Assembly (NCBI RefSeq): GCF_033568475.1
Contig: NC_133121.1
Location: 79,876,589 to 79,940,588, forward strand
Length of the DNA stretch: 64,000 bases
Source of the DNA: Henckelia pumila
Lineage: Eukaryota; Streptophyta; Magnoliopsida; Lamiales; Gesneriaceae
Direction: 5' to 3'
The stretch's first letter is position 1. Each line of letters begins with the position of its first letter. Shown one piece after another: positions 3,501 to 31,444 of this stretch. The notes below the pieces were generated by a model. The model did no database searches. It was not told the DNA's origin and worked only from the letters and a program-made list of their open reading frames with translations. Position numbers and translations under genes: made by a program.

Positions 3501-3681
3501 TGTTGTTGTCTCCAAAGGTGACAGTCCCCTTCTCCTTTGGTTTGATTGATTGAAGAAGATCCTTGTTCCCCGTCATATGTCTAGAACATCCACTGTCTAG
3601 ATACCATATGCTAGGGAGAGCATTTTTCTTGTTTCCCTGAAAATAATTGATTTTGGTACCCTTTAGTTCTTTTGGGTCCAC
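598..3681 (-). CDS. pol: Ty1/copia pol polyprotein (protease, integrase, reverse transcriptase, RNase H)
   Basis: An open frame of up to 1027 codons with the full copia domain order. The protease motif [13 protein letters not shown] is at residues 26-38 (catalytic Asp29). The gag-pre-integrase zinc region is at about 158-197 (HRRLGH then CDACQ). The integrase triad is Asp224, Asp287 and Glu323, a DD36E spacing. Reverse transcriptase covers about 553-795 with [11 protein letters not shown] at 631 and YVDD at 718-721. RNase H covers about 875-1010 (Asp881, Glu920, Asp955) and ends with ADIFTKPL. The start used is only the first ATG of the open frame. The protease begins near it, so the true N-terminus may come from fusion with gag or from splicing. 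There is no stop or frameshift inside, so this is the most intact element in the window. It replicates the element through an RNA intermediate in cytoplasmic particles. Confidence 0.93.
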
Positions 3682-3920
3682 AATGTTAGAAAAGAGAGAT
3701 ACAAAATAGACTTCTAAGAGTTCAGTCTCTCATAGCAACATCATCGCCACTTTCCAAGAGTGCTCCCAGTAGTAGGTAGGGCATATGGCCACTTTAAAAA
3801 CCTATTTCCTTGGACAGAGCAACGTTCAACAGGGAGACCAGCCGCAAGTCAAGGCATTTTTAAGCCGGTCTATATTGAACTCCCTTAGATTGTGATCTCA
3901 TAATGCCGACTAATGAGTTG
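3682..3920 (-). other. Non-coding spacer between gag and pol of copia element 1
   Basis: About 239 bases with stops in the reading direction separate the gag stop from the protease frame. Related elements usually read straight through. On the minus strand there is a TTCTAAC branch-point-like sequence shortly before an AG upstream of the protease, so a removed intron is possible, but no clear donor is visible. An old insertion is the alternative. Confidence 0.5.
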
Positions 3921-5336
3921 TTAAGTACTCTTAGGCCTCCATTTCATATAGCTCTTTTGAACATATTGATATTTCAATGATCTGCATTTATGTCTAACAT
4001 GACCAGATTTGCAACAATAAGAACAAGTAGGGGGTGATCTAATTTTAGCTTTAGCTATTAGACTAGCAAAGTCTATAGACTTTTTACCATAGCCTATTCC
4101 TCCCTTATCAAAGCTACATTTCTGCATGCTAAGTAGGTTGTTCAATTTATTGCTACTCACATTGAATTTATCGAAAGATTTTTCTAAGTGATCTAAGTCA
4201 TCCTTAAGTCTAAGGTTATCATGCTCCTTAGTTTCTAATTCCTTTTTAAGATTTCTATTCTCTTTTCTAAGAACCTTAACCATATCAAACATATCTTTAT
4301 AAGCATGTAAGAGTTCATCGTAAGTAGGTACCTCGTCATCGTCGTCAGAGACGATGTCATCACTTTTAGCCATTAAGCAGAGGTTTGCTTCCTCGTCGTC
4401 GTCGTCGCTATCACTCCAGGTAGCTAGTAGGGCTTTCTTCTTTCCTTTGTCCACTTTCTTCTTGAGTGGGCATTCATTGGCGTAGTGACCTTGTTGTTGA
4501 CAGTTGTAGCAGGTCACTTCTTTCTCAGGTTTCTTGTCCTTTTTGAATTTGTTTCCTCGCATGAATTTCTTGAATTTTCTTGCGAAGAGAGCCATGTCAT
4601 CATCGTCATCTTCTTCGACTTGTGTAGTCAAGGCTATCCCTTTGTGCTTGACATCTTCTTTCTTTGATTCTTTTCTTGTGGACACTTCTAACTCATGGGT
4701 TTTTAGGGTCCCATGTAGTTGATCAAGATCATAGGCGGCAGTGTCCCCTTTGTTGGATTCGATGATGGCGGTTCTCTTTGCATCCCATTCTTTTGGTAGG
4801 GCACGAAGAGCTCTCCTCCAAACTTGCTTGGTAGGATATTGTTCTCCCAATTGTGCTAACTCATTGATGATTTGAGTAAGCCTTCGGAACATGGTGTCAA
4901 CATCTTCGTTGGATTCCATCTCAAATGTTTCGTATTTGAGTTGGAGTAAGTCGATCTTTGTTTCTTTCACTTGGTTGGTGCCTTCGTGACATATCTCTAG
5001 CTTGTCCCATATCTCTTTAGCAGATGAGCACATCGATATCCGGTTGTACTCGTTCATATCTAAGGAACAATGCAAGATATTCATAGCTTTAGCATTTTGC
5101 GAAATTAATTTCATGTCCTCTTTTGAAAAGTCATCCATTCCCTTAGGAATTTCAACCCCATCAACTATTTTCATAGGTGTATAGGGACCTTTCACCGTCA
5201 CTTTCCATAGGTCATAGTCTACGGATTGGATATATAGGGAAATACGATTTTTCCAATACCCGTAGTTTATGCCATTAAAAAGAGGAGGACGATTAGTAGA
5301 TTGCCCTTGAGCATAATCACTCGCTAGGTTTGCCAT
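3921..5336 (-). CDS. gag: Ty1/copia gag (capsid-nucleocapsid) protein
   Basis: 471 codons if started at the ATG at 5336 (MANLASDYAQG), 29 bases inside the primer binding site. The open frame extends upstream to 5378, but that stretch includes the primer binding site. The N-terminal half is a UBN2/retrotran_gag-type domain (PPLFNGINYGYWKNRI, later LQLKYETFEM and a long helical region). A CCHC zinc knuckle reads CYNCQQQGHYANEC. An acidic stretch and a coiled-coil-like segment (KVLRKENRNLKKELE) follow, then a second knuckle CSYCCKSGHVRHKC near the C-terminus. Two knuckles plus a coiled coil are typical of the large-gag copia lineages (SIRE/Maximus type). It forms the particle and binds genomic RNA. 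Confidence 0.9.
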   Translation of the reverse strand: MANLASDYAQGQSTNRPPLFNGINYGYWKNRISLYIQSVDYDLWKVTVKGPYTPMKIVDGVEIPKGMDDFSKEDMKLISQNAKAMNILHCSLDMNEYNRISMCSSAKEIWDKLEICHEGTNQVKETKIDLLQLKYETFEMESNEDVDTMFRRLTQIINELAQLGEQYPTKQVWRRALRALPKEWDAKRTAIIESNKGDTAAYDLDQLHGTLKTHELEVSTRKESKKEDVKHKGIALTTQVEEDDDDDMALFARKFKKFMRGNKFKKDKKPEKEVTCYNCQQQGHYANECPLKKKVDKGKKKALLATWSDSDDDDEEANLCLMAKSDDIVSDDDDEVPTYDELLHAYKDMFDMVKVLRKENRNLKKELETKEHDNLRLKDDLDHLEKSFDKFNVSSNKLNNLLSMQKCSFDKGGIGYGKKSIDFASLIAKAKIRSPPTCSYCCKSGHVRHKCRSLKYQYVQKSYMKWRPKST

Positions 5337-5365
5337 AAAAAGGATTTGAAAAGTATTTTCAAATG

Positions 5366-5377
5366 GCTCTGATACCA
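5366..5377 (-). other. Primer binding site (tRNA-iMet) of copia element 1
   Basis: GCTCTGATACCA on plus is TGGTATCAGAGC on minus, complementary to the 3' end of plant initiator tRNA-Met, two bases inside the 5' LTR. Confidence 0.9.
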
Positions 5378-5379
5378 CT

Positions 5380-14015: not shown

Positions 14016-15180
14016 ACTGTAGTTGAGTGGCATGGAATCTAGATTTACTTCCAGAGTCAGATGACTCATGGCACGGAATATAGATTTATTTCCAGAGCTA
14101 GAAGACTCACTATAGTTGCACCAAAGTCAGGGGAATTGAGATATTTAACACCACCTCGAGTGGGAGAGTCGGTGGTTGGTTAAAGATTTTATTTCCCCGG
14201 GATCCCAGAGCTACGATTTATTGAATCAGATTTGATAGCCTATTCCTTGGCACATGCATTGCATTTATGCATTAACCTAGAGATTTCTATGGTTTAGAAT
14301 ATGCGTTTATAAATGCTAGCATGTTAGTATTTGATATTCAATATTTGAATGAGTTTATATGCATAGATGAACGAATATACTATCATGTTTTGCCTGTTAT
14401 TACATGATTTGAGAGTTAAGATTCATTTGGCATATAGATTTAATATGTTTAAATGATGTATATGCATGTCGTTTATACTTAGATTTATTCTCACCGGAGT
14501 TATCCGGCTGTTGCTTTGTTTGTATGTGTGCATTGCATCGGGTTGGGGCATAAGCAAGTCAGACTTGACTTGGATTGCACGAAATTGAAAGGTTAGAAGT
14601 GGAGACTCGGGTTTTAAGCAGATGACATGTATTTTATGATTTGGTAATCATGTTAGAACAACACGCACTTTTGTATATGTTGTTGTTGAGTATTGATTCA
14701 TGTATTACCGATATGTAGATTGATGTTTAAATGCATGTCAAGTATGTAGAATCATATTGCATAGCTTATATGATAGATTATATCATTTTTCAGACTTGAT
14801 AGCATTAAGAAGATTGATTTTATGCACAGGGCACGGACCCCGTGCTTGCCATGGGCAAGGGTCCGGATGGACTCTGTCCCAAAATGTTTTGAGAAAAGGA
14901 GGCACGGACCCCGTGTAAGCCTCCGTGTAAGGGTCCGTGTGTCCTCTGTTCCACAACTCCTTTGAATTTCAGTTTCTGCATAGGCACGGACCCTTGTACA
15001 AAAGCTGCACGAACCCCGTGCAATGGTCCGTGCAAGGGTCCGGACCAAGGTTCGTGTGTGAGCAGAATTTTAAAAAAAAATTCAGTCTTTGATTTTATTC
15101 GTTCAAGTGTGATTCTTTTATGATTAAATGTTAATTTTTCCCCTTAAGATGATATTAGCACCCGAGGTCCCCACAACAAC
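14016..15180. other. Unassigned LTR-like sequence with GC-rich inverted repeats
   Basis: There is no credible gene. The sequence style (TCACCGGAGTTATCCGG, later a terminal GAGGTCCCCACAAC) resembles LTRs of plant gypsy elements, but no second copy is in the window. 14823-15050 holds several imperfect inverted copies of GCACGGACCC/GGGTCCGTG. Confidence 0.4.
14823..15050. repeat. Cluster of GCACGGACCC / GGGTCCGTGC inverted repeats
   Basis: At least four direct and three reverse copies of the decamer occur in about 230 bases, several arranged head to head so that short hairpins can form. Confidence 0.75.
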
Positions 15181-15952
15181 TGTAAGGGAATGGGGTTGCA
15201 CATAAACAATTTGAGGTACCTTGTGACAACACCTACAATAACACCTTGAGTAATTTGCAGCGGAATATAATTTAGGCGTGAATAAAATAAACAAGCAGCC
15301 AAATAAATAGACTCAAATGATTTAAGCAAGAGTATAAAATACTCTTGCAGCGCCTCAGGGCAAAACTTCATTAGAAAACTTTCAAAGAGTTTTACAAACC
15401 CTAAAACTAGTGATTATTGTAAAAATAAATTTCTCAAAACAAGTGAGAAAATAAAGAGTAAAAGTTCCCCTAAAAATTCTATATGAAATATAATAACAAA
15501 AGAACGAAGTAAGGAGAAAAATGTTGAAGCCAAAATCAAACGAGCAGCACACTTCTTGATCACCGATCTTCAAGTGTTCTTCAAGGCTTCAAGTTGTCAC
15601 GACCTCAACTAAGCTTCAGAAAAATCTTCAGCTTTCTCACAATATACGTACATAGGTTCTCACGATCGATTCTCTCTATATCTCGGTAGGTCTCCTTCCT
15701 CCAATATATATACTAGAATCCTTTCTTGTAGATGAAAACTTGTAGACATAGGATTCTCTAGATTTGTTCACATCAAATCTACACAATATGAAAACGATAT
15801 ATTAGATAAGATATTATAATGAGCTTATCAAAATCTCAAATCAAGTTATTCAAGGAAATAAATAATATTACTTCATGTCCAAGAAAGGCAAAAGATATTA
15901 AATAAAATATTTTCAAAATATGATGATTTTAAGGAATAAAATATTCCTTTCA
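15181..15952 (-). repeat. 3' LTR of copia element 2
   Basis: 772 bases, TGTAAGG to CTTTCA, matching 28740-29411. It is about 100 bases longer because the other LTR has a deletion near 29225. The preceding pentamer ACAAC (15176-15180) and the ATAAC that follows the other LTR differ at one base, consistent with an old target duplication. Confidence 0.88.
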
Positions 15953-15970
15953 ATCTCCCCCTTTTTGCCT
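15953..15970 (-). other. Polypurine tract of copia element 2
   Basis: On minus, AAAAAGGGGGAGAT lies directly before the LTR start. Confidence 0.75.
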
Positions 15971-16278
15971 TTCTGGACAAAACACATTTAATTTACAAAC
16001 AGATCAACGAAACTCCCCCTTAATCAAAACTTCCCCTGAATAGATTCTCCCCCTAAGTAGAAGCAGAGGTGTTGTCACGAGATGTTGGCAACATCTAGCT
16101 ACAACACTTCAAATTAGAAAACATAAGTGCAAGGAGAAATAGAAACAAGAATTCATATCAAAGCTGACATCACAAAAGAATAGTTTTAATTAGGATCAGA
16201 GCAAAGAGACACAAAACCTAAGACCAAAAGAAATTTAAACTATACTAGAAAAACCAAAATAAATAAACTATAAACAAA
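15971..16278. other. Spacer between extra ORF and 3' LTR of copia element 2
   Basis: Non-coding. It contains one copy of the GTGTTG palindromic module at 16068-16110 and two further CTCCCCC tracts. Confidence 0.6.
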
Positions 16279-17603
16279 CTAGAATTTATTGCTCTCAGAT
16301 GAGCCATCAACTTCTTCTTCTGCTTCACTTCCTTCTCCCCTTTTTTGTTCAGAAGGGCCAGCTTCACTTAATAAGGACTCATAGTGAGCCTTCATTCCTT
16401 CGTAATAGGCGAGGTCAGCCTTCGCTTGGGTAATATTCTGCTCAGCATGCAGCAGTTGAGCTTGGATAAAGTTAGGATCAATATCTTGAGCAGCAGATGG
16501 GGGTACAAAAACAACAGTGGTAGAGGAGGTGTTGGCAAAACCTGCCACAACACCTGATTCAGACCAAGGTAGGTCTATCTTTCGGTTGCCTCGTAGCAAT
16601 GCAGGTGAGATCTTTAGCAATCCCCAGGCTCAGTGAGTAGCTCATCATCATCCTTCTCAATCTCTTGAGATAGCAGCATAGCATAAATCAGAGAAGGATA
16701 TGGAAAATTCTGGGTTGGTTGAGCACAATTTGCAAAGGCCATGACTGTGTCAAACACAAGTCGACCAAAATTGAATTTGAATCCTGATCCAATTGCATAC
16801 AAGACTGGAGCCTAGTTCTTTGTAACAACGGTAGAATTCCCAGATGGAGTCCATGTCTTGACAGCGGTTTTGTGAAGAACAGAGTAGAAGGAGGTGAGTT
16901 TGGCGGCTGGTAGCTTTTTAGGATGAGCTGGAAACACTGTGACTTGACCACCTGTGATGACAGAGGTCATCTCATCCAAAGTAGGTAGAGCAGCATCATC
17001 ACCAGTAAGTGTATGGAGGAATCCATTGATCATAGCAGGGCTGAAGGCAAAAATCTGTCCTCGCACATACACTTTGTCATATTTAACATACCGAGGGTCC
17101 TTCACTGCTTCAGTCAAATTGCAATAAAACTCACGAACAAGTGTCCTGCAATACGCACCAGCAGTGGTAACAGTAGACATCATGTTCCTTACCTCAAAGA
17201 ACTTCACCATGTTCTGAGCTTGATAGCTTTCCACATTAATGTTGTGTTCCTCAAGGAACTCTCTATCAGCATACTTATCCCAGCAGTCAGCGATTTTCTT
17301 GGAATAAAAATTTGAGGAATAAGACTCATTTACCCGATAGTCTTCACCCAAGGTGTTGTCCAGGGTGTCGGCAACACCTTCCTCAACATCTTTTTCTTCT
17401 TCATCAGAGTCATTAGAACTAACTCTTCTTCCAATTTCTTCTCAGCATCTGAACCTTCACTCGAATCAGAGCTGGAGCTATCAGAAGGTTGTGGGTGGTT
17501 ATCAGCAAATTCCTTGAGCATCTCCTCATCTGGTTCATCATCAGATTCAGGAATAGGAGCTGTAGCAGCCGACGTAGGCTTTTTGCTTGAAGACTTCTTC
17601 ATT
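16279..17603 (-). pseudogene. Extra ORF of copia element 2, C-terminal part (frameshifted)
   Basis: Overlapping frames (17602-17330, 17351-16812, 16802-16614, 16620-16279) together read as one protein with frameshifts. It starts with a Ser/Asp/Glu-rich linker (SSSSDSSEGSDAEKK). A folded part follows with FYSKKIADCWDKYADREFL, VREFYCNLTEA and VYVRGQIFAFSPAMINGFL, and then a helical acidic tail (LLHAEQNITQAKADLAYYE). The FYCNL...VRG...FSPxxIN pattern matches what I recall as the 'putative plant transposon protein' domain found near plant retroelements; its function is unknown. The ORF lies after pol on the same strand, the place of the env-like or additional ORF in SIRE-type elements. I see no signal peptide or membrane segment, so an envelope role is not supported. 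The N-terminal part lies beyond the CACTA insertion, at 21974-22604. Confidence 0.7.
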
Positions 17604-17859
17604 CACTATAAAAAATATGATTTTTCGCAGTGCAACATCAACAGCATACATTAAAAGTAAGCTGTTGATATTATTTTTAGCAGCACGCACATTTTTGTAC
17701 GCTATTAATATATTGATATATTATAACAATAACAGCGTGCATTTAATAATATTTTCAATGACATTATTTTAAAGAACGCCATTAAAACATGTATCAGCAG
17801 CGTGTAATCGGCACGCTATTAATAGGTGAAGATAAATAATTTCTCTCTTTTATCTTCCG

Positions 17860-20800
17860 CCCCAAATCCATAAAAATAATTCATAATTTCCAGGCAGCGG
17901 CGCCTCTCGTCTCGTTTCTCTTCGTTGTGTTCTCAAATTTGGACGCCTCGATCCCATCTCAGCCTCGTAAGTTTGTTCTCCTTCTACCTCAATCCTTCCC
18001 TCTTCCTCGTAGAGGTGTGTTCATACCCATCCCTCGTAACTTTGGTATGTTTTTTCAAGTAATTTGTTGCATCTTGGCAGGGATCCTGCTTGTGGATGTG
18101 GTCGGTGGATTTAGGGCTGTGGGATACTTTAATTTCCTAAACCAAGAAAAAAAATTTCAACATCATCTTATCGTCTTGCGTCTGTCATTGTTCTGATTTC
18201 CCTTGCCGCGTAACTTTGGCACAAACGGACGAGAACTCGATTCAGGTAAATCTTTTTTATTTTGTTTCTCGTTTTTTTCTTTTGTTTATTTGCAAAAATG
18301 GATGTATAAACTGGTTGATTCACTTGGAGTTTCTGCTAATTATTTGGAAATTTTAATTTTTGAGTTTCTACTAAAATCAATATTGGGAAAGTTAGATGTG
18401 CTAGATTACTATTGTTGACCGAATTATGCCCTAGAAAGTTTGGTTTTGATTGGTCTGAAGAAAATCAGTTTATTTGGTTTTGTTAATTTTGGTTTTTCTG
18501 CTGATTGCTCACCCCTACATTGAATTGTAGGCTACTGGTTTATAAAAATCACTTGAAGATCCTCAACCCCTAAGCATTGCATATTTGACAATTGTAGTGG
18601 GATACACTGCAACCAAATTCAATCCTGTTGTCTCGATTGAATTTGGTTAATGTTCAGTTTGGAAACAAACTATGGCAAAATATAGTGAAATTGATATTGT
18701 TTGAAGCTTGTATGATATCCTAAAACTGAGCTTTTAAAGTTGTCGAATAAGATAAGTTCAGTTATAGTGAAATACAAACTAGAGGGTAGAGGAAAAAAAA
18801 AATTCATCTAAAGATTAAAAGAGAAAAGAGAAGAAAAATGGATTTGTAAATAACTTAGAATATAGGAATAGCATTGAGATTTTTTGAATTTAACTTGTGT
18901 GGACTTAAAAAATAAGTTGAATATTTCATAAGTTGTTTTAATTGGCTTAAAAACTTAGCTGAACAAGTTGTTCATGTCACTGCTTGGGCTAATTCTGTTC
19001 TAAAAATTGGCATCTATGGTGACAAAAAAAAAAGATGCAAACTAGGATCTGAATATGTTGGTTTTATTGGAAAATCTATGGTTGATAGTTGCATTTTGAA
19101 ATTTGAGTCTTAGGTATTTTATTTTTTCATTGTTGTTTGGTGTTCTGACCAACTCAATCTACCAAACCAAGATTTTGATCTTTTTTGTACAATTTTAATG
19201 ATCCTTTTGCATTAAATAACACTGTAGTTTTTAGTTGCAATGGTCAGTTGCTGGAGCAAACAAAATTACGCCTACTTGTTTGATGAATGAATCTATTCTA
19301 AAGCATTTACGAATCACAACCAGAAGGCATTGCGTAGAGCAAGTCTGGATCTTTTTTGTTAGCTTTTGGATAGTCAAATCTTTGAAATTCAAGAATAAAC
19401 ATCTGTTTGTTTTTATATGTAAGTTTATAAAGAAATATTTCTTCCTCAAATTCCTGTAGAACTGTTCTATTGCAGGTTATGTGCCGGATGGATACGCTCT
19501 TTTTGTTACAGTACCCTCAATCGCGACTAGTTATATAATTCGCGGTGTTCATGTTCAGGACAAGAAGTGGGATGAAGAATAGATTGTGGCTGGAAGAGAA
19601 GATGGTGCAGAAAGACAAGAATAAGGTTGAGTTTTCATTAATCATCTATGCATGTAAGAACATGTGAAACTTATTTCATACCCTTTTTTAACAAAATTGT
19701 TATATTTTATTTTGAATTTATTTTAAAGTAGTCATTGTTAACGATCTTTGTGAAAAGTTGAAAGATCACGATATATCTTATGTAAAATTAATAATCTTTT
19801 AATTAACACATTATGATATAACACAATATGATAATATATAACTCCTATAAAACTTTGTTCATGATATGATATATATATATATATAAGATTTCCAAAGAGT
19901 GTCGATTATACGTGGTGTGTTCGTGTTTTTTGACAGTTTGGTGTCCTTCAATAATTTCTTCATGTCGATTATATTATTTTTTCTTGAAGTTGTAGAGATT
20001 TGGTATTTTAATGTTGATAAACTAACAAAAACTTGAAGAATGCAAACTTTGATTTATTTTATTTTTTCTCGCTAGCTCGTTGAAATTTGAAAATGTGGGC
20101 AGAAGATTCAAAGTATATATATGTTGCATCTGAGAATAATTTTTTTCTGTTTTTGCCTCTATTTTAGTGCTTGCGTTTTTTATTTTGTTGATAATTTTCT
20201 TTATTCAGCTGCTTAGATAGTAGGCTGCAGTAACCATGTTCAGGATTTGGAAAGCACTTCTATTTTCATCCTTGAATTTTGACTAATCATTTTGGCTAAC
20301 TTAAAGCTTGAGTTTTTTTTTTTTTTTTACTTCAAGCATGATTTATTTATGGTCCAACTAGTTGAATCGGGGTGGTGGTTAGTTTATATTGCTTCCTTTT
20401 GCACTTTCATGTTTTCATGGTCATATTCCATTTGTTGTGTGATCTTTAGTATTTGATTAATTTTGGAATTTAATAATGTTGCTTGAGGTTGAAGTAGATG
20501 AGACTTATTTTAGAGGTACTTTATAGATAGATCCATTAATATCGTTAAGAAATAGATCTGTTTAAATTCATTCAATGATCACAATGGATCCTGCTAATGT
20601 GGCGGCAGATCTAAGTTATGCTATGTGTTATGATGTAAATAGCATTGAATCTTTGGAAACCACATGAAATTTATGGGGAAAAAATTACACTTATAGTTTA
20701 TATCTTGTTTTATGCTCGGTGTTATGATTTGTTAAGTTTTTTTTTCCCAAATGTGAAATGTTTTCCTGTTTAGAGTTGCTTCATGCTTCCGAATAATTTT

Positions 20801-21420
20801 TCTTGTCCGTATTTATTTGTTACGCGAGTGAATGCAGTAAACACGGTATTGGGCATGGCTCCAAGGAAGATTCTAGTGGTGCAAAACATAGCTGGAGTAC
20901 TGGTTCTGATGTTCGATAAGGAAAGTTTGTGCAAAATGATCTGCTATTAATGTTAAGTTCGAGGCTTTTACTAAGTTCGAGGTGTATGCCTTGCTAATTA
21001 AGCTATGCATCGTGGGTAGGAGTTGGTGGGTATGTAACCAAAGGTATGAGTTTTTCAAATGTGAAATTTATGTCGTACTAGATATGAACATCATATTTTG
21101 ACTTATCCTTTTTCCTCTCTTTTTAGCTTGCTCTCATACCCTTTGTAGATCTTATTCATTTGATTCTTTGATAGTTTTTAATCTGTAGAATATCATAGTT
21201 TTTAATCTGCAGAATAATTTTTTATATATATATCTTATTCATTTGATTCTTTGATAATTTTTTTATTCATTCCAGGTACGAGTTCTATTCATTTGATTCT
21301 TTGATACTTTTAATCTTTGATGTATACTCTTTTTTATATGCAGAAGGTCAAAAGAAAAAAAAGTAAGAAATCTAAATTTGTGAAAAATTTCAATGCAGAA
21401 TGCACGGAATGGGCTTTGGA
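17860..21420. other. Interior of the CACTA element, unassigned
   Basis: 3.5 kb of AT-rich DNA with a short GC-richer start (17890-18060, TCTCGTCTCGTTTCTCTTCG and similar) that looks like a 5' UTR with GT-containing exon ends. No protein motif is recognisable. A captured gene fragment is possible but unproven. Three copies of TTCATTTGATTCTTTGATA occur at about 21155-21305. Confidence 0.4.
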
Positions 21421-21699
21421 GTTGCGTGGATTGGAAGTTTGATAATTGTCATGTGTACAGTGTAGTTAGTTTATGAGAGTGTAGTTAGTTTATGAGAGAT
21501 TTCGTATATTGTTTTTGGTGTTGCGACTTTTGTGTTGGTACGATGAACGAAAAAGTGACTTTTATTATCTGTATATGATTAGAGTTAAAAACTTGCGATC
21601 AATCATTTTGTTGTAAATATCTTATTTTTCTGGTTTTCATGAATAAAATTGGAATATTTTTTTTTATTTTTCATTCATTTTCTTTTTTTTTTATTTGGT

Positions 21700-21960
21700 T
21701 GAATTCTTTCCGCAGCGTGCATTTTATGCTGTCAATAATATATCCACGGCGTATTTTGCACGCTGTCGATGTAACTTTCCGCAGCATGCAACGTCCGCTG
21801 TGGATGAAAATTTCCGCACAGCGCGCAATACACGCTGCGGATGTAAGTTTCTGCAGCACTCGTTGCATGCTGCGGATACCCCATAAGTTTCAACAGCTTA
21901 CTACTATGCAGAGCGCAATGTGCGCTGCGGATAGCTAATTTGAACGCTGCGAAAACTCAC
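21700..21960. repeat. CACTA subterminal repeats (GCAGCGTGCA type)
   Basis: About ten direct and inverted copies of a GCAGCGTGCA / TGCACGCTGCGGATG-like motif occur in 260 bases. In CACTA elements such arrays are transposase binding sites. Confidence 0.8.
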
Positions 21961-21973
21961 TTTTGTTGTAGTG

Positions 21974-22604
21974 ATTTTAGCCATGAACTGGGCTATTGAC
22001 ATCTCCTCATCATCAGACAGAACAGGAAGAGCAGTAGATGATGGTTCCTCAGTGACAGGAATGGATGCAGAAGCATCTTTCTCTTTAGCAGCAACAGATT
22101 GAGTTTCTGACTCTGTAGATTCATCCTCAGAAGACGAATCTTTCTTTGATGAATCAAACAGAACGGGAGTAGTTGGAATGGATGGTTCCATGGCACTGGC
22201 TTTTCCCCTTTTTTGATGCACCAATTTGAAATCCTCATCAGAGCTTGCATCACCAGAAGAGAATTCGGTGTCCACAAGAGAAGGTCTGGACCCTTCCCAC
22301 GGAATCTTTTCGAAGCAGTGTAATCTGGGTTGTAGCCAGCTTGTCTCTTGGATCTACGGGTCAAGGGTTTTGAAGGAAACACCTTGTTCAGTACGCTCAT
22401 GTCTGGAAAATTTTCCACATCAATGGCATTACCAGGCTCTCTTAGAGCGATGGAGTCCAGGGGTACAGGTTCTTCTGCAACAGAAACTATGGCTTGCTCA
22501 ATCACGGGGTGTGTTGATGAAGGTGCTGTAACACCTTCCGCAGCATCTTCCGTATATCCCATCTCAGAACGGATGTCGTGTGAATCATAACCCTTTCCTG
22601 CCAT
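21974..22604 (-). pseudogene. Extra ORF of copia element 2, N-terminal part
   Basis: The ATG at 22604 starts MAGKGYDSHDIRSEMGYTED. A frame change near 22280 shifts reading to the frame ending at the CACTA border (SIAQFMAK). This part is acidic and low in complexity, with a basic nuclear-signal-like patch (PLTRRSKRQAGY, then KRFRGKG). It contains one short GTGTTG-module at 22521-22547. The function is unknown. Confidence 0.65.
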
Positions 22605-23638
22605 TGGTATATGAGAGAGTGAAAAATTTTAGGGCAGATGAATGATCAAAAACAGGGGCAAAAGGAGATATAAGAAATTCGAAGGTTTAAGATGGTAAGA
22701 ATATATCCGAAAACAGATAATTACCAAATAAATACCACACACACAGCCCTTCCTATTTTTACTCGAATTACAGCCCCTCTGACGGTAATAAATTTCAACG
22801 GTAACAAATCCTAATCCTAACGGCACTCTAATTCGATTAGGAAACAAATCTCTTTAAATTTCACCGATAATCTAGGCCCATATATTTCACCAAATATTTT
22901 CAAGTTTAACTCTTCATCAGAATATAACCCACTGAAACAAAATCCAATACCATTCAAATTCAAAAATTTAGAGGATAGGGCAAAAATCTAAATTTTTGTC
23001 TGATCAGAGTTCATAACCTTTCGGCCAAAGATATTCACAAATGAAAATATGCATGTCCTAATTATGTCTAAAAATAGAGTGTGACATAAAAATACAATGC
23101 AATTATATGCACAAATATATGTTGACAAGTGAGGTGTTATCCATGATGTTGGCAACATCTCCCAGCAACACTTCAGGATTCAGAAAAAATTTGATATCCA
23201 ATTCATTATTTTTGCAGAAGTGGCAGCCTGCACACTAAAGGAACGATCTTCAAATGGACCCCTTTAGATAGCTTTTTCCATTTGCTTCTAATTATCAATC
23301 AAATTTGATGATTGATTCAATTCAAGCTTACTTGTTCTTTTGTTATTCTGATTTTGCAAAGTCACTTTTCATTTGGGACAAGATCATGGAATACACGAAC
23401 GTCCCTCCACTACTTTGTGACTTAGTCAAAACTCTTCTTCAATTAATACAAATTAAATAACAAATATTTTGCAAAGAATCCTGAGTGAAAACTAGTCAAT
23501 GGTTACAAAGTATCCAACACATCACAAAACAGAATGAATGCATGAATACAATATGCCTAAGATCCAAAACAATGCATATGCATGAAAAGGTGTTGTCACA
23601 GGGTGTTGGCAACACTCCTGACAACATCTCGGTTCTGT
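22605..23638. other. Spacer between pol and extra ORF of copia element 2
   Basis: No ORF of note. It holds two palindromic modules (23132-23173 and 23589-23629), the second starting about ten bases past the pol stop in the reading direction. Confidence 0.6.
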
Positions 23639-25574
23639 CTATAATGCACACATATTGAGAGACTTCCTTAGACTGAAAAATCCCTCAAAATCCAAAGCTT
23701 TTGTGAATATATCAGCTAATTGGTTATTAGTTCCAACAAACTCAATTAAGATCATGCTTTTCTCGACCAAATCTCGAATGAAGTGATGTCTAATGTCAAT
23801 GTGTTTGGTTCGAGAGTGTTGTACTGGATTTTTGGATATATCAATGACACTAGAATTATCACAGTACACAATAGGAGTATCACTCTTAACACCATAATCA
23901 TTTAGCATTTGAATCATCCAAAGGAGTTGTGAGCAACAACTACCAACAGCAACATACTCAGACTCGGCAGTAGACAGTGAGACAGTTTTGTTTCTTACTA
24001 TATCAAGACACTAGGTTATTCCCCAAGTAAAAACAACCTCCCGAAGTGCTCTTTCTCTCATCTAAATCTCAATCCCAATCAGAATCACTAAACCCTACCA
24101 AATTCGAATTGGTTTCTTTAGTGTACCACAAACCCAAATTCAAAGTTCCAGCCACATATTTCAGTATACGTTATACTGCCTTCAAGTGAGTAACCTTTGG
24201 GTTAGACTGGTATCTAGCACACAAACAAATAATATACATGATATCAGGTCTAGTAGCACTTAAATACAAAAGACTACCAATCATGCTTCTGTAGAGGGTG
24301 TTGTCAACACCTTCGACAACATCCTCCCTAGATAGTTTTTCATTAGACCCCATAGGTGTGCGCATGTGTTTAGTGTTGTCATTCAGAAACATCTTCACAA
24401 GATTTTTAGCATACTTGCTTTGACACAAAAATATACCATCATGCATTTGTTTCACTTGCAAGCCCAAGAAATATGTTAACTCACCAACCATGCTCATCTC
24501 AAATGTAGAAGACATGCACTTTACAAAATCATCAACAAGTTTATCATTTGAAGCACAAAAAATTATATCATCTACATAAATTTGGCAAATTAAGATATTA
24601 CATTGAGACTTTTGCACAAACAAAGTCTTATCAACTTCACATCTTTTGAAGCCAATATTGAGCAAGTACTCAGTTAGTCTTCCATACCATGCACGTGGTG
24701 CTTGCTTCAATCCATACAATGTCTTTTTTAACTTATACACATAATCAAGATGATTTGGATCCTCAAACCCTTTAGGTTGTTTTACAAAAACTTCTTCATT
24801 TAGGATCACATTCAAAAAGACACTTTTTACATCCATTTGAAAAAGTTTCATTCACATGTTACACGAAATAGCAAGCAAAAGTCGGAAAAACTCAATGCGG
24901 GCTACAGGAGCAAAGGTTTTATCAAAATCCAGCCCTTCAACCTGTATATACCCTCGAGCTACCAACTTAGCTTTATTTCTAATGATGTTTTCCGACTCAT
25001 CAGTTTTATTCTTGAAAATCCATTTAATTTTTATTACATTACCATGAGCAGTACACGGTACCAAGTACCAAACATCATTCCTAACAAATTGTTCTAACTC
25101 TTCATGCATAGCATTGACCCAAAATTCATCTTTTAAAGCCTCTTCAACCTTTTTGGGTTCAATGTTTGACACGAAACAAGAGAATCTTATCTGAGAATAC
25201 GTAGAACTCATGCACAACAAACCTGCCATCTTTCGATAATCCACTTTCTCTTTCCTTCGAGTTTGCAAGTCTCCATTGACCTGTGAGGTTGGGTGATTCT
25301 TCTGAATTCTGCTTGAAACATTCTTTCCAGCTTCGTTTACCTCACTGTTCAAATCAGTATTCTCATCAGTAGGCTTTTCAACTTTTGATTCTGTATTTTC
25401 TGTAGGACGTGTTGTCGGAGGTGTTGGCAACACTCCTTTGACAACATCTGAATTTTCAGAATTATCCAGCAGATCATTAACTTCATCCTCAGCTGTTTTC
25501 TTCTTTAGATCTGCAAAGTCATCAAAAAAAACTTTAATTGACTCAAAAATAGTCCTTGTTCTAAAGTTATACAT
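23639..25574 (-). pseudogene. pol: Copia element 2 reverse transcriptase and RNase H (broken)
   Basis: Frames 25574-24852, 24851-24171 and 23917-23639 cover the reverse transcriptase (VKIKWIFKN-type start, [53 protein letters not shown], YVDDIIF) and the C-terminal RNase H ([38 protein letters not shown]). A stop after LLLAISCNM (24852) and a damaged stretch at 23918-24170 that should hold the first RNase H motifs break the frame. A palindromic module sits inside the coding sequence at 24296-24325 and another at 25408-25449. Confidence 0.88.
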
Positions 25575-25601
25575 CCTATAGGCTCGTCTATTTGATGAAT
25601 A

Positions 25602-27127
25602 TCACAAGAACATACACTTATCACTTTTTGCATCAAATTTAGCAAGATGATCTCTATCATTCAAAACGTGACATACACATCCAAAAACATGAAAATATTT
25701 AAGGTTTGGCCTCTTTCCCATGAGGATTTCATAGGATGTCATAGTAGTACCATTCCTCAAATAAACTCTATTTGAAATATGACATGCAGTATTCAAGGCT
25801 TCAGTCCAAAAACGTTTTGAAATATTTTTCGAACTCAACATCACTCTTGCCATTTCTTGCAAAGTCCTATTTTTTCTTTCAGCAATTCCATTTTGTTGTG
25901 GAGTTTTAGGAGCAGAAAATTCATGAGAAATACCTTTCTTATCACACAAACTAGCAAAATAAGAATTTTCAAACTCCTTACCATGGTCAGTACAAATTCT
26001 GATTACCTTCAGATTGTATAGGTTCGAAATCTTAGTGAGTAGTTTCTTGAATGCATCAAATGTGTCCGATTTTTCTCTTAAAAAATTTACCCAAGTATAT
26101 CGTGAGAAATCATCCACACAAACAAAAGAATATTTCTTAACACCAAAGCTTTCAACATCCATTGGCCCATCAAGTCCATATGTATAAGCTCAAGGCAGTG
26201 TGTTGTCACAGATGTTGGCAACATCTCGTGTGACACCCTAGTCTGCTTCTCTTTCTGACATGCTTCACAAACAAATGGAGTACCAAATTTTAAGTTAGGC
26301 ATACCTCTCACAGCATCTAACTTACTTAAGTTCTTTAATGTCTTGAAATTTGCATGACCCAATTTTTGATGTCATATATCAAACTCATTAACTTTTGTGT
26401 GCCTACAAGCCATCTCTTCTCTGAGTTTATAGCAGTTGTCGGATGACCTAGTACCTGTCATGACACAGAGATTTGAATCATCAAAAACTTTGCATAATTT
26501 CTTATCAAATTGCACATGCAAATTATCATCACAAAGTTGGCTTATGCTTATTAGATTTGCGGTTAATCCTTCAACATGAAGCACATTGCGAAGCTTAGGC
26601 AAACCAGCAACATTCAGAGTTCCCTTTCCAACAATGTTTCCCCTTGAACCTCCACCATAGGTTACTTTTCCACTTTTTTGTTCAACATAGTCAGTGAGAA
26701 ACTTCTTGGAACCTATCATGTGACGTGAGCTCCCGCTATCAAAGTACCAAGCACCTGAAACATTAGTCCTCAAGGCAGTATAAATCATATGACATTGAAT
26801 ATCAACTTTTGGTACCCAAACCTTCCTTACATAAGATCTGTTTTCTGGAGATGTTGTGGGGAGGTGTTGGCAACACCTTCGATGCAGATCTATATATGTA
26901 GTCTTCCTGTAGCTTAAAACAGTATGGTTTGATGTGACCAGGTTTATGATAGTAGTGACAAATGTACTTACGTTTCCTTCTAGACATTGAAGGAGCAGCA
27001 GGTTGTGGTTTTGGTTTTGGAGGGATAATTGGTGAGGCCTTTTTATATGAGCTTTCAGTACTGCAACTTTCCTTGACAAACACAGGGTCTTTCGAACTTT
27101 CACCAACCTCAAATATGTTGTTTTCAA
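25602..27127 (-). pseudogene. pol: Copia element 2 protease and integrase (broken)
   Basis: The protease motif is WYFDSGSSRHMIG. The zinc region follows (LGHANFKTL, then CEACQKEKQTR). The integrase core has Asp in HMDLMG, Asp in CTDHGKEFENS and Glu in TPQQNGIAERKNRTL. A one-base loss just after HMDLMG shifts the frame, and another break lies at about 26365. The module at 26198-26238 covers the 12 residues between the zinc region and HMDL. Confidence 0.87.
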
Positions 27128-28666
27128 AACCTAAACCAGTCGTACCATCTCTTTCCATCATAAGTAGAGAATCAAGTTTGGAAGTACTTGAATTAAACTT
27201 GGCCAAAGTAGCATTTGTTGTTCTGAGTTCTTCCTTCACTTGACTTAATTCCATGTCTTTCTTACTCAGCATGACTTTCAGTCTTGACACATCAGCCTTT
27301 AGATCAGAATTTTCCTTTGAAAGAATAGTATTCATCTTATTCCTTTCAACCCAATCAGTATGTAACTCTTCAAACATCATCTGAGCTTCTTCCATGGACA
27401 TTGTCTCTTCACCTGTATCATTATCACACATATTATCAGTAATGGAAGAATTCAAACAAACTGACCTTTGGGAGATGTTGCAGCCAGGTGTGGCAACACC
27501 TGCGGCAACACCTAAAGGATTGAGTTGAAACTTTTTCTTGCTCTCCAGTAGTGCATATAAGGCAGTATGGCTTTCTTCATCTTCCTGTTCTTCTTATTCG
27601 GACTCTTCATCACTCAAAGACGTGTTCATCCCTTTCCTAAGCGTGTTGGCACACTCATTTTCATAGTGTCCAAAGCCTTGACAAACATGACATTGAACAG
27701 TGTCCAACTTTTTTGAGACAATTAAACTTCTTCTTCGCTTCCAACATCAGTCGAGGCTTAGGAGTATCAACAGGTTTCCTTGGTGATTGTTCTAGTCCAG
27801 TAATCCTTAAAGGCTTGTTAGATAACATTGGAGCCTTGAGTTTTTGATCCGTCTTTCTTGACTCTTTCATCTTCTTCGGATAATCATTGAATTTCCTAGT
27901 CATGAGAGAAATCGAATCATCTTCTAAATCAGATTGATGAACTTCTTGATGAAATTGAACATACTCCTCATATGAGGGTTTTGAGGCTTGAAGGGCTATT
28001 GATTTTCCTTTAACCTTCTCTTGTTCTGTATTGTTCATCTCAAAAACTTGAAGGATGCTAATCAGTTCAGTCATCTTCATCTTTAAGTGTCTTTTATTTC
28101 TTCAAGCGCCCAAATCTTCCCATTGAATCTTTTAGGCAAGGATCGAAGAACCTTGTTCACCATAGTTTCACTAGCAATAGGTCCTCCAAGAGCATGCGCC
28201 TCTGTAGTATCTCCCTAAGTTTCTTATCATAATCAACAATAGTCTCATTCTCATCCATCCTGATATTCTCAAATTTTGCGTTTAACAATCTCAATCTTGT
28301 TCTTCTCACGCTATCAGTTCCTTCACAGTGTTCTTGAAGAGCATCTCATGCATCCTTAGCAATAGTGCAGTCAGATATGATTCCATACATCCTCATATCC
28401 ACAGTTGCAAAAATTGCATTGAGTGCTTTAGCATTGTAGCTTGAACTTTGTGTTTCCTCGGCAGTCCAAGTTTCTTCTTGCTTGATGATATAGTCTCCAT
28501 CTTCATCTAGTGTCTTTGGAGGAGTCCAACCAGTCAGAATACTTTGCCAAACACGAACATCCATAGCTTTAATAGTATATCGCATCATATTCTTCCATAG
28601 TGTGTAATTCGTGTCATCAAGGACCAGAGGTTTCAAGAACGAGTTCGCAACAGACGATGAGTCCAT
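26802..28666 (-). pseudogene. gag: Copia element 2 gag (broken)
   Basis: The start at 28666 gives the copia gag N-terminus (LKPLVLDDTNYTLWKNMMRY, later NAKALNAIFATVD). A stop at about 28346 and further breaks separate it from 28080-27661 and 27455-26802, a coiled-coil region (LSKENSDLKADVSRLKVMLSKKDMELSQV). The zinc-knuckle-like sequence CHYYHKPGHIKPYC has lost its second cysteine to Tyr. A module interrupts the gag-protease linker at 26849-26885 and another lies at 27473-27513. Confidence 0.82.
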
Positions 28667-28725
28667 CTTATTCCCTATAATAAAATAAACAAACCAAGAT
28701 CAGTTCTTAGTGTATCAAGAATATG

Positions 28726-28737
28726 GCTCTGATACCA
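28726..28737 (-). other. Primer binding site (tRNA-iMet) of copia element 2
   Basis: TGGTATCAGAGC on minus, two bases inside the 5' LTR. Confidence 0.88.
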
Positions 28738-28739
28738 CT

Positions 28740-29411
28740 TGTAAGGGAATGGGGGTTGCACATAAACAGTTTGAGGTGTTGTCACAAGGTGTTGACAACA
28801 CCTACAATAACACCTTGAGTAATTTGCAGCGAAATATAATTTAGGCATGAATAAAATAAACAAGCAACCAAATAAATAGACTCGAATGATTTAAGCAAGA
28901 GTATAAAATACTCTTGCAGCGCCTCAGGGCAAAACTTCACTAGAAAACTTTCAAAGAGTTTTACAAACCCTAAAACTAGTGATTATTGTAAAAATCAATT
29001 TCTCAAAACAAGTGAGAAAATAAAGAGTAAAAGTTTCCCTAAAAATTCTATATGAAATAGAATAACAAAAGAACGAAGTAAGGAGAAAAATGTTGAAGCC
29101 AAAATCACACGAGCAGCACACTTCTTGATCACCTATCTTCAAGTATTCTTCAAGGCTTCAAGTTGTCACGACCTCAACTAAGCTTCAGAAAAATCTTCAG
29201 CTTTCTCACAATATACGTACATAGGTTCACATCAAATATACACAATATGAAAACGATATATTAGATAAGATATTATAATGAGCTTATCAAAATCTCAAAT
29301 CAAGTTATTCAAGAAAATAAATAATATTACTTCATGTCCAAGAAAGACAAAAGATATTAAATAAAATCTTTTCAAAATAGGATGATTTTAAGGAATAAAA
29401 TATTCCTTTCA
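28740..29411 (-). repeat. 5' LTR of copia element 2
   Basis: 672 bases matching 15181-15952, with a deletion of about 100 bases near 29225 flanked in the longer copy by short GTTC repeats. A complete palindromic module lies near its inner end at 28774-28815. Followed by ATAAC (29412-29416). Confidence 0.88.
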
Positions 29412-29815
29412 ATAACATACAATACGTACGTACACTTCATAAGGATCTACCGTTACGCGACTCATGTCGTTGCCCCGACAAGCTGTTACAAAACCATAAT
29501 CTACCATGTTGTTGGTCCGCGCCGCAACGCCAAGTCTCGTAAAAGGCATTGTACATGAATAAGATCCCTTGTACCAATAGAAAATCGGTATCCAGATCGT
29601 CATGTGTTAATCAATGGACTCCGATATCTCACATACACTTTGAGCACAAGCTTTCATAGTTTTGCTTTTGGAACCACCCAAAAAACCTCGTACCAATAGA
29701 GATCTCATTTCATATATTAACCCATGATCTTTGCACAGTACTAATGCTGAGCAACTAGGATTCATTTGCTTATTCATATTTGCTATTCACTTGTATACAA
29801 TATACTGACTACCAA
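29412..29815. other. Flank between copia element 2 and the oxidase gene
   Basis: Contains a 64-codon ORF on minus (29409-29603) whose stop is supplied by the first LTR bases. I do not recognise its protein. The rest is probably the 3' UTR and terminator region of the oxidase. Confidence 0.4.
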
Positions 29816-31444
29816 TTACTGAATTTTAACCCACACAGCGGAACTTGGTGTGTAAGCATGTACAACAAACAACATGTAGTAGCCTGGAGGTGCTATCTCA
29901 CGCGTGGATGGTCCTGATACAACACCACCATAGAAATTGGATCCGATTCCCCAAACTCGAACCACTTTTAGCACAACCATCCTTTGATTCATCGAAAACG
30001 AATGCGTGTTGAACGACGGGGCGATTATTCTAACCGAAAGAGAGCTCATTCCGATAAAAGTGGGTACTGTGAATACCAAGGAGAAGGAATTCTTGTACAT
30101 GACCGTCTCATCGGCTCGCAATATTCTTGGCCTCATGGTGTCGAATTCAGGTGACAAGTACGGGGGAGAGAATGATTCCAGGCTTAAATCTGTTGGAAAC
30201 TCAACGTTGGTGAAGTTGTAATATATGTGAGGGTTGCTGCCTCCCACCAGAATCCGGCCGTCCGCGAGTAGGACGGCTGTGGAGTGGTAAAGCCGCGGCT
30301 TAGGCGACGCTGCCATGGAGGCGAACCTGTTTTTGGATTTCCTGTTGTGTTTGTAGATCACAGGCCTGGTGACAGGATTTCGAGCGTTCTCCCACCCGGC
30401 CGTGCCTGATCCGGCACCGTTGATTATCATGATATCGCCATTGGGGAGAAGAAGCATGTCACTCATGACTCTGGCCATTGGCATGTTTTCCATTTTCCAG
30501 GCGGGGTTCGTCTCTGTGACTTTCAGGCGGCCACAGGTGGCTGTGGCACGGAGAAACGTCCCTCGTCTTGCCAGCCGGAAGGCGCTATGTTTAGCACCTC
30601 CACATATCATGACTTCAGCTTGGTTTGGAATATTTTCATCGATGGGGAGCAGAACAGAGGAGCCGGAGCTCGGATAGTTCCGGGGTTCGCCTCCAGTGAT
30701 GGCGGGGAATTCCCTTATTACCCTGTTTTGCTTGTAATCAAACAGGATTGATCGTGTATTGGCGAAAATGAAGAGGTTTCCATCAGGCAACAAGTGTAGG
30801 AAAGGGTACAAATTGTTTTCATTCTCATCACTGGTTTCTCTCAGAAAATTGAGCCAAAAAGCATTTGAACCAGCAGGGTAGAACTCAAAGTTGAACTGTC
30901 CTCTCCCGCCAACTATGATTATTCGCCCGTCTGGCAGTATCTGATTCGTCGCATACCATCTACGTCGCGAAAGAGCTCGAGGGAACTCAACCCAATCACA
31001 AATCTGGCCATTGCATGGTGCAAAAGTACGTATAACGTGGTCACCGTCGTTATATCCCCCGGTTTGGACTAGAGTCCCATTGGGGAGCACCGCACCAGAC
31101 GAGCACCATGTGTCGGTTTGAACGGTTAAGGGACGAAAATTATTCGTTACAACGTCATACAATATCGAGTGAGCTGTACAATCTTCTTTAAGGGCTGTAT
31201 CGTTCGGATCATTCCTGCAGCGACCCCATGGCAGCGAAAGGTTGGAAGGGCCAAAATCAGTTCTATCAAACATGACAACTTTGTTGTTTCTGAGTAGTTG
31301 CATGTGCATAGCCGAAATACCGATGTTTTCGTGCAGGAGCCTCCATTCGCCCTGTGTGGATTCGGGATAGGGAGAGACAACTTGTGATGTTGAAGGAGAA
31401 GAAAGGGTTGTAAATAAGAGTGACAGAAGGAAAAATGATAACAT
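29816..31444 (-). CDS. Glyoxal/galactose-oxidase-like copper-radical oxidase (aldehyde oxidase GLOX type)
   Basis: A single-exon gene of 542 codons, the usual length for plant GLOX proteins. An N-terminal signal peptide (MLSFFLLSLLFTTLSSPSTS) predicts secretion to the cell wall. A glyoxal-oxidase N-terminal beta-propeller (about residues 35-430, repeated LPNGxxVxxGG/LPDGRIIIVGG blades) is followed by the DUF1929 beta-sandwich (about 435-542). The copper-radical residues can all be placed by family pattern: Cys114 (DTWCSSG) and Tyr164 (RRRWYATN) for the thioether cofactor, Tyr386-His387 (RLYHS) and His481 (THSFSMNQR) as copper ligands. Such enzymes oxidise aldehydes or primary alcohols with O2 and give H2O2; Arabidopsis GLOX1 acts in pollen and wall development. 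The substrate here is unknown. There are no internal breaks. Confidence 0.93.
   Translation of the reverse strand: MLSFFLLSLLFTTLSSPSTSQVVSPYPESTQGEWRLLHENIGISAMHMQLLRNNKVVMFDRTDFGPSNLSLPWGRCRNDPNDTALKEDCTAHSILYDVVTNNFRPLTVQTDTWCSSGAVLPNGTLVQTGGYNDGDHVIRTFAPCNGQICDWVEFPRALSRRRWYATNQILPDGRIIIVGGRGQFNFEFYPAGSNAFWLNFLRETSDENENNLYPFLHLLPDGNLFIFANTRSILFDYKQNRVIREFPAITGGEPRNYPSSGSSVLLPIDENIPNQAEVMICGGAKHSAFRLARRGTFLRATATCGRLKVTETNPAWKMENMPMARVMSDMLLLPNGDIMIINGAGSGTAGWENARNPVTRPVIYKHNRKSKNRFASMAASPKPRLYHSTAVLLADGRILVGGSNPHIYYNFTNVEFPTDLSLESFSPPYLSPEFDTMRPRILRADETVMYKNSFSLVFTVPTFIGMSSLSVRIIAPSFNTHSFSMNQRMVVLKVVRVWGIGSNFYGGVVSGPSTREIAPPGYYMLFVVHAYTPSSAVWVKIQ

Follow-up and report, generated by a model that had tools for sequence, protein, structure and literature searches.

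Why should a copia retrotransposon carry one short palindrome over and over, in its long terminal repeats (LTRs), its spacers and its protein-coding sequence? The question is raised by element 2, a Sirevirus-like copia retrotransposon on the reverse strand at 15181-29411 of a 64,000-nucleotide stretch of Henckelia pumila DNA (NC_133121.1, positions 79,876,589 to 79,940,588; hereafter the window), in which a first-pass annotation noticed 13 modules built from RGRTGTTG half-sites. That annotation left several origins open: a tiny mobile or copied sequence, protein-binding sites, or packaging or dimerization hairpins of the element's RNA. We consider it probable, if well short of certain, that a dimeric or oligomeric protein recognizes the modules as sites on double-stranded DNA, and that these sites, which at least in integrase and reverse transcriptase arose in place by base substitution, have been kept by selection on their half-sites.

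A module reads, in order, RGRTGTTG, a spacer of 4-5 bases, a second RGRTGTTG, one base, CAACAYCY, a spacer of 4-6 bases and a second CAACAYCY; the central single base is absent in two modules. The 13 sites, to which no strand is assigned, are given here with their scores in a four-half-site scan (RGRTGTTG twice forward and twice reverse, maximum score 32).

Module 1, 15206-15246: 3' LTR remnant, score 24, recognized through LTR homology.
Module 2, 16067-16109: spacer between the extra open reading frame (ORF) and the polypurine tract (PPT), score 31.
Module 3, 16515-16555: C-terminal part of the extra ORF, score 27; the half-sites from 16527 onward, three in number, are good.
Module 4, 17351-17391: extra ORF, ahead of the PF20167 match, score 31.
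Module 5, 22509-22548: N-terminal part of the extra ORF, score 28.
Module 6, 23132-23173: spacer between pol and the extra ORF, score 29.
Module 7, 23588-23629: directly 3' of the pol reading frame, score 31.
Module 8, 24284-24324: junction of reverse transcriptase (RT) and RNase H, score 28, the missing half-site coinciding with the conserved LYRSMIG.
Module 9, 25407-25449: linker between integrase and RT, score 30.
Module 10, 26198-26238: interval between gag_pre-integrs and rve, score 29.
Module 11, 26849-26891: upstream of Pol_BBD, score 29; other copies have a fourth half-site that this one has lost.
Module 12, 27473-27513: gag, downstream of the zinc-knuckle-like CHVCQGFGHYENEC, score 31.
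Module 13, 28774-28815: 5' LTR, score 31.

Across these modules 46 of 52 half-sites have at most one mismatch, and over those 46 conservation is 46 for T4, 45 for G5, 44 for T6, 44 for T7 and 42 for G8. The modules at 16515, 24284 and 26849 have three good half-sites each, not four. Avoidance of CpG was considered as a separate feature and was unsupported overall (9 in 554 module bases, 128 in 9860 element bases); CG occurs only twice across the 52 half-sites.

Could such a series arise by chance? The scan of the window returned 13 modules at 24 or above, 12 of them between 27 and 31 and five at 31, all in element 2. Simulated second-order Markov windows, 200 in all, never scored above 25 (a value reached in 12 of them) and averaged 0.44 peaks at 24 or above. 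The module at 15206, with its score of 24, is not significant by itself, and was accepted because it can be aligned with the 5' LTR module. Elsewhere in the window the best scores were 21 in the CACTA transposon that interrupts element 2 and 21 in the first 7 kb, which include element 1, a module-free copia relative at 598-5378. Half-site clusters, defined as at least three half-sites with at most one mismatch each and starts no more than 26 bases apart, number 14 in the window, of which 12 coincide with modules; 40 first-order Markov windows averaged 0.73 such clusters and never had more than 3. The two off-module clusters, at 23922 and 52264, are probably due to chance; the former (23922-23957), a weak group of three half-sites within the RNase H region, fails the four-half-site scan. 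The first-pass count, the spread over LTRs, spacers and coding regions, and the absence from the CACTA insert and element 1 are thereby borne out. The limits of the element, 15181-29411, are wider than its range of 15213 to 28815.

The pattern is equally distinct in the 885-Mb assembly. A three-half-site pattern allowing up to three mismatches matched at least 2262 forward and at least 2369 reverse sites (at least 4631 in total), against 6 forward and 2 reverse (8 in total) for the reversed pattern; exact four-half-site sites numbered 216 against none in the control. Together with the Markov windows, these controls exclude the possibility, raised in the first-pass annotation, that the module is as common by chance elsewhere. 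All 47 loci picked by module type among the matches listed match element 2 or its LTR, and all 20 further places taken from the 100 listed match the element 2 family outside the module. Sequence search confirmed no related loci in viral contigs, where the pattern scan matched at least 120 stretches.

A sister subfamily, whose LTRs are about 75-88% like that of element 2, carries modules at the same sites. When sites were matched through protein position within pol and through their order outside it, modules were present at 8 of 8 sites in range in sister copy L165 and at 9 of 9 in L167; copy L163 has no module at the 17351 site. Sister copies also have extra modules: the LTR has a second one, 150-160 bases away, for which an old tandem duplication is the likely source, and some copies have an additional one near the 16067 site.

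Are the modules merely inherited, or are they kept? Genome copies were aligned to the window, 20 picked by module 11 and 17 by module 2, with the picking module left out and flanks defined as bases within 100 of modules. Half-sites differed at 103 of 1837 positions in the 20-copy set, against 1331 of 12128 in flanks, and at 115 of 1388 in the 17-copy set, against 1518 of 9395. The pooled half-site to flank ratio is 0.51 (0.44-0.59, bootstrap over copies), and 0.42 (0.33-0.50) for the core TGTTG. Half-sites differ less often than flanks in all 33 copies that could be compared (4 of the 37 were dropped for having too few half-site columns) and at 9 of 9 modules, though barely at 26198; when a half-site-shaped mask was slid over the 20-copy region only 9 of 2000 trials were as low. 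Of the 205 copy cells at columns where the window departs from the consensus, 132 agree with the window, 43 carry the consensus base and 30 carry neither. Differences between sister copies and the window (96 of 985 in half-sites, 2094 of 7612 in flanks) are biased and provide no evidence on rates, because the pairs were selected for carrying a module. Ordinary descent with no gain or loss fails as an account, given the slower half-sites, the extra modules of the sister subfamily and the half-site lost by the window element at 26849. Selection on each half-site would maintain the modules along the lineage.

Uniformity could also be produced by neutral copying, in which template switching, gene conversion or tandem duplication spreads or homogenizes the module without selection. 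Left spacers start with TC in 7 of 12 modules and with TCAC in 4 of 12, which is in line with copying, as is the fit of the two LTR modules to two different deletions of one 43-bp palindrome whose arms match at 21 of 21 positions. The paired LTR modules of the sister subfamily (L159:5001-5190, L161:5001-5190, L163:4821-5010 and L165:4809-5010) are alike over about 35 bases, far more than their mostly unlike flanks, and could reflect conversion. Judged from the letters, the two LTR modules would have had a two-deletion history, which suggests that palindromes are unstable at the LTR sites (15206-15246 and 28774-28815). At orthologous sites, however, it is the half-sites and not the spacers that are kept: within the modules of the 20-copy set, half-sites differ at 0.056 and the remaining bases at 0.126 (82 of 652). 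Since conversion between modules would carry spacers too, neutral copying is disfavored, and we regard it as very unlikely.

The recurrence of a 43-bp unit at many sites is also what a tiny mobile palindromic element would leave after 13 insertions. Bacterial intragenic palindromic elements, such as the RPE of Rickettsia, are insertions that lengthen proteins. Element 2 resembles them in having short palindromic units in coding sequence and differs in that length is unchanged at both sites where it is testable, the integrase and RT sites, the remaining coding sites being too variable. The alignment of element 1 with element 2 has no gaps across either site (69 and 225 amino acids), while half-site scores are 29 in element 2 against 8 in element 1 for integrase and 28 against 13 for RT. 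The RT site is 29 residues long in all 84 anchored homologues among 120 listed; the other 36 were not counted, 25 having no YR motif and 11 no TP. The mobile sequence envisaged in the first-pass annotation is thus contradicted at two sites, and is hardly plausible for the series as a whole. At least the integrase and RT modules would have originated in place, by base substitution.

A repeated peptide is likewise ruled out, as the coding modules span at least two reading frames: they read V-x-N/D at 16515, 17351 and 24284 and L-P-T at 25407 and 26198 (at 26849, where two open frames overlap, the frame is not secure). Two frames, together with the modules in spacers and LTRs, indicate that the signal is in the DNA and not in the peptide. 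A protein-level test took, for each protein, the best module score that any codon choice permits. A score of at least 29 is permitted by 7 of 12 Gesneriaceae proteins, but by none of 229 others and none of 1470 shuffles; 16 proteins, the 12 Gesneriaceae by name and P0121-P0124, were left out of the 229. The five Gesneriaceae proteins below 29 are P0001, P0241, P0242, P0244 and P0245. Those reaching it are mostly Henckelia proteins, which probably come from the same genome, so that Primulina P0003, which scores 29 and is the sole other species, is the only independent one; by their names, P0012 and P0018 are isoforms. The RT proteins P0121 (Rehmannia glutinosa) and P0123 have REDVAESVDNTLYR and REDVAENVDNTLYR, with scores of 28 and 27 that lie inside the shuffle range, and a wider spread of the module-like RT peptide in Lamiales is possible.

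Is the DNA-level signal read as DNA or through the genomic RNA? Dispersed hairpins, or palindromic dimerization or packaging signals read by Gag, would suit packaging at multiple sites. Sense RNA folds with z of -2 or lower against shuffles in 9 of 12 modules, and 904 of the 1048 cells compared across copies keep the inner pairs paired. Against this, the antisense strand is more stable than the sense strand in 12 of 12 modules tested, and wobble mismatches across the dyad favor antisense both over copies (191 cells against 66 for sense) and within the window (16 against 5). Across copies there are 2 double compensatory changes against 136 one-sided, pair-breaking ones, but dead copies need no compensation. 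Rfam gave no matches at gathering score in 15100-29500. The third base of the inner pair is in step in 12 of 12 window modules (permutation 0.004), whereas at 26198 it is A/G in 13 of 17 copies and strict symmetry is lost. Because compensatory changes are rare, wobbles are biased to antisense and third-base symmetry fails at 26198, the constraint seems to act on the sequence of each half-site and not on an RNA stem, which fits a protein on double-stranded DNA. The hairpin option of the first-pass annotation is thereby weakened, and we consider RNA structures quite unlikely to explain the modules. Protein-binding sites are the best supported of its options: the selection would be for protein binding to DNA, with the binder acting as a dimer or higher oligomer on the double strand.

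The modules are also evenly placed. With the length of the CACTA insert subtracted, gaps between them range from 447 to 1301 bases (coefficient of variation 0.31), and 20000 random placements gave no arrangement this even. Part of this may reflect protein tolerance, because the six comparable coding modules fall outside matched Pfam stretches (that at 16515 was judged through relatives). The longest module-free gap, 27514-28773 (about 1.3 kb), corresponds to the N-terminal part of gag and is shorter in sister copies L165 and L167.

Which protein could bind these sites depends on what element 2 encodes. The element was delimited by its LTR pair, primer-binding site and PPT junctions, flanks and domain matches, and its other features are as follows.

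3' LTR: 15181-15952, reverse strand.
PPT-like repeated tracts and PPT-AT/TG junction: 15953-16060, reverse strand.
Extra ORF, C-terminal part, with PF20167 (Transposase_32): 16300-17603, reverse strand, with stops and frame changes.
CACTA insert without modules: 17604-21973, no strand assigned, inside the extra ORF, with a 3-bp target site duplication ATT.
Extra ORF, N-terminal part: 21993-22604, reverse strand, with frame changes.
Primer-binding site TGGTATCAGAGC: 28726-28737, reverse strand, which we take to be of the initiator-Met type.
5' LTR: 28740-29411, reverse strand, about 110 bases of the 3' LTR being absent.

The profile search matched gag_pre-integrs, rve, SH3_retrovirus, Pol_BBD and RVT_2, and the target site duplication of 5 bp is a near-match, ACAAC/ATAAC. 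Within 15953-16060, GGGGGAG occurs three times with one GGGGAAG variant, so that the PPT is present in several copies ahead of the 3' LTR. The AT/TG attachment site comes directly after the PPT, the sense strand reading AAAAAGGGGGAG-AT-TGAAAGG. The PPT repeats and the AT/TG junction support assignment of element 2 to Sirevirus, a genus of Ty1/copia, as far as sequence features can. The gap of the 5' LTR relative to the 3' LTR lies at about 29225. The CACTA interior has a 34-base repeat three times at 21146-21312 and CCGCAGCGTGCA-like subterminal repeats at 21709-21950. The retrotransposon is adjoined by an open 542-amino-acid glyoxal oxidase-like frame at 29816-31444 (PF07250, PF09118).

The extra ORF lies after pol, where many but not all Sireviruses have an env-like ORF, and its relatives among the matches listed are five, all Henckelia proteins. 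In sunflower, the Ty3/gypsy element Athila 14 is described as having a 3' extra ORF with Transposase_32 (PF20167) and predicted nuclear localization (PMC11728184). The survey of 13 Sireviruses reports linker copies of a palindromic motif only in those bearing ENV (Bousios et al., 2010; PMC2829016), and VANC proteins are presented as motif-specific anti-silencing factors encoded by plant transposons (Hosaka et al., 2017; PMC5735166). The predicted nuclear signal of the sunflower extra ORF with PF20167, the ENV-linked motifs and the VANC precedent make the extra-ORF protein the leading candidate. More speculatively, this protein, with its predicted C-terminal helix, could bind the modules and, much as VANC proteins do, influence the chromatin or the transcription of the element as an anti-silencing factor. 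A host DNA-binding protein whose sites are exploited by the element, without any element protein, would share all of the DNA-level evidence, and Sirevirus motifs have been matched to sites of stress-related factors in the account cited above (PMC2829016). However, enhancer sites would be needed in the LTR alone, which leaves their upkeep in gag, pol and the extra ORF unexplained, and such a host factor is hypothetical only; we find this explanation rather unlikely.

Several points weigh against sites kept for a binding protein, and against the extra-ORF protein in particular. The copies compared are related by descent within one genome and are partly dead, and most changes between them may postdate insertion. 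Module 10 (26198) is hardly slowed (0.086 against 0.094 in its flank), it is also where symmetry is lost, and the spacing between inner and outer half-sites varies from 12 to 14 bases. The sense-strand folding described above counts on the same side, and even spacing may be a by-product of placement between protein domains. The structural model of the extra-ORF product (P0244 and five others) has a mean pLDDT of 37.8, with only the C-terminal helix (about 294-339) above 50, and a search of solved structures with this product gave only matches of E 0.69 or weaker, with no convincing relative. The binder stays a candidate, proposed from sequence.

How new are the modules? The first-pass annotation knew of no described plant repeat of this kind, which stands for their sequence, architecture and coding spread, and does not stand for palindromic repeats as such, since palindromic Sirevirus motifs have been described. 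As reported by Bousios et al. (2010; PMC2829016), Sirevirus repeated motifs are palindromes of 10-20 bp with a CGG-CCG core, except in Tnd-1, and cluster in LTRs and upstream of ENV, with a few at the ENV start. Element 2 resembles that description in having palindromes in many copies (13), some of them in LTRs and some close to the gene that follows pol. It departs from it in having four half-sites with a TGTTG core dispersed through gag, pol and the extra ORF, and one module per LTR with the rest dispersed, mostly in coding DNA, instead of clusters. No CGG-N(0-10)-CCG was found in element 2, and neither the sequence nor the architecture of the module was found in the open-licence literature. 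Among known systems the Sirevirus motifs are therefore the nearest, yet the modules lack the CGG-CCG core, consist of four half-sites and extend into coding DNA along the element. Athila 14 shares the 3' extra ORF with Transposase_32, but is Ty3/gypsy, and the part of PMC11728184 that deals with it mentions no dispersed motif. VANC motifs of Arabidopsis VANDAL, as outlined by Hosaka et al. (2017; PMC5735166), are non-coding tandem repeats in the same orientation, and VANDALs are DNA transposons. The likeness is a short motif enriched in one transposable element family with an extra protein gene, and the gain of motifs through tandem duplication, which is likely for the LTR of the sister subfamily; the difference is that the modules of element 2 are dispersed dyads, partly in coding DNA.

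A motif kept by selection through the coding DNA of integrase, RT and gag, at thousands of places in the genome, points to a sequence-specific function across the whole element. It is an unlikely but not a fanciful possibility that this family has come to carry, along its entire length, conserved polymerase genes included and at near-regular intervals, target sites for a sequence-specific DNA-binding, anti-silencing protein that it encodes itself, as a retroelement counterpart of VANC and VANDAL. If true, this would explain why palindromic motifs accompany the env-like gene in Sireviruses.

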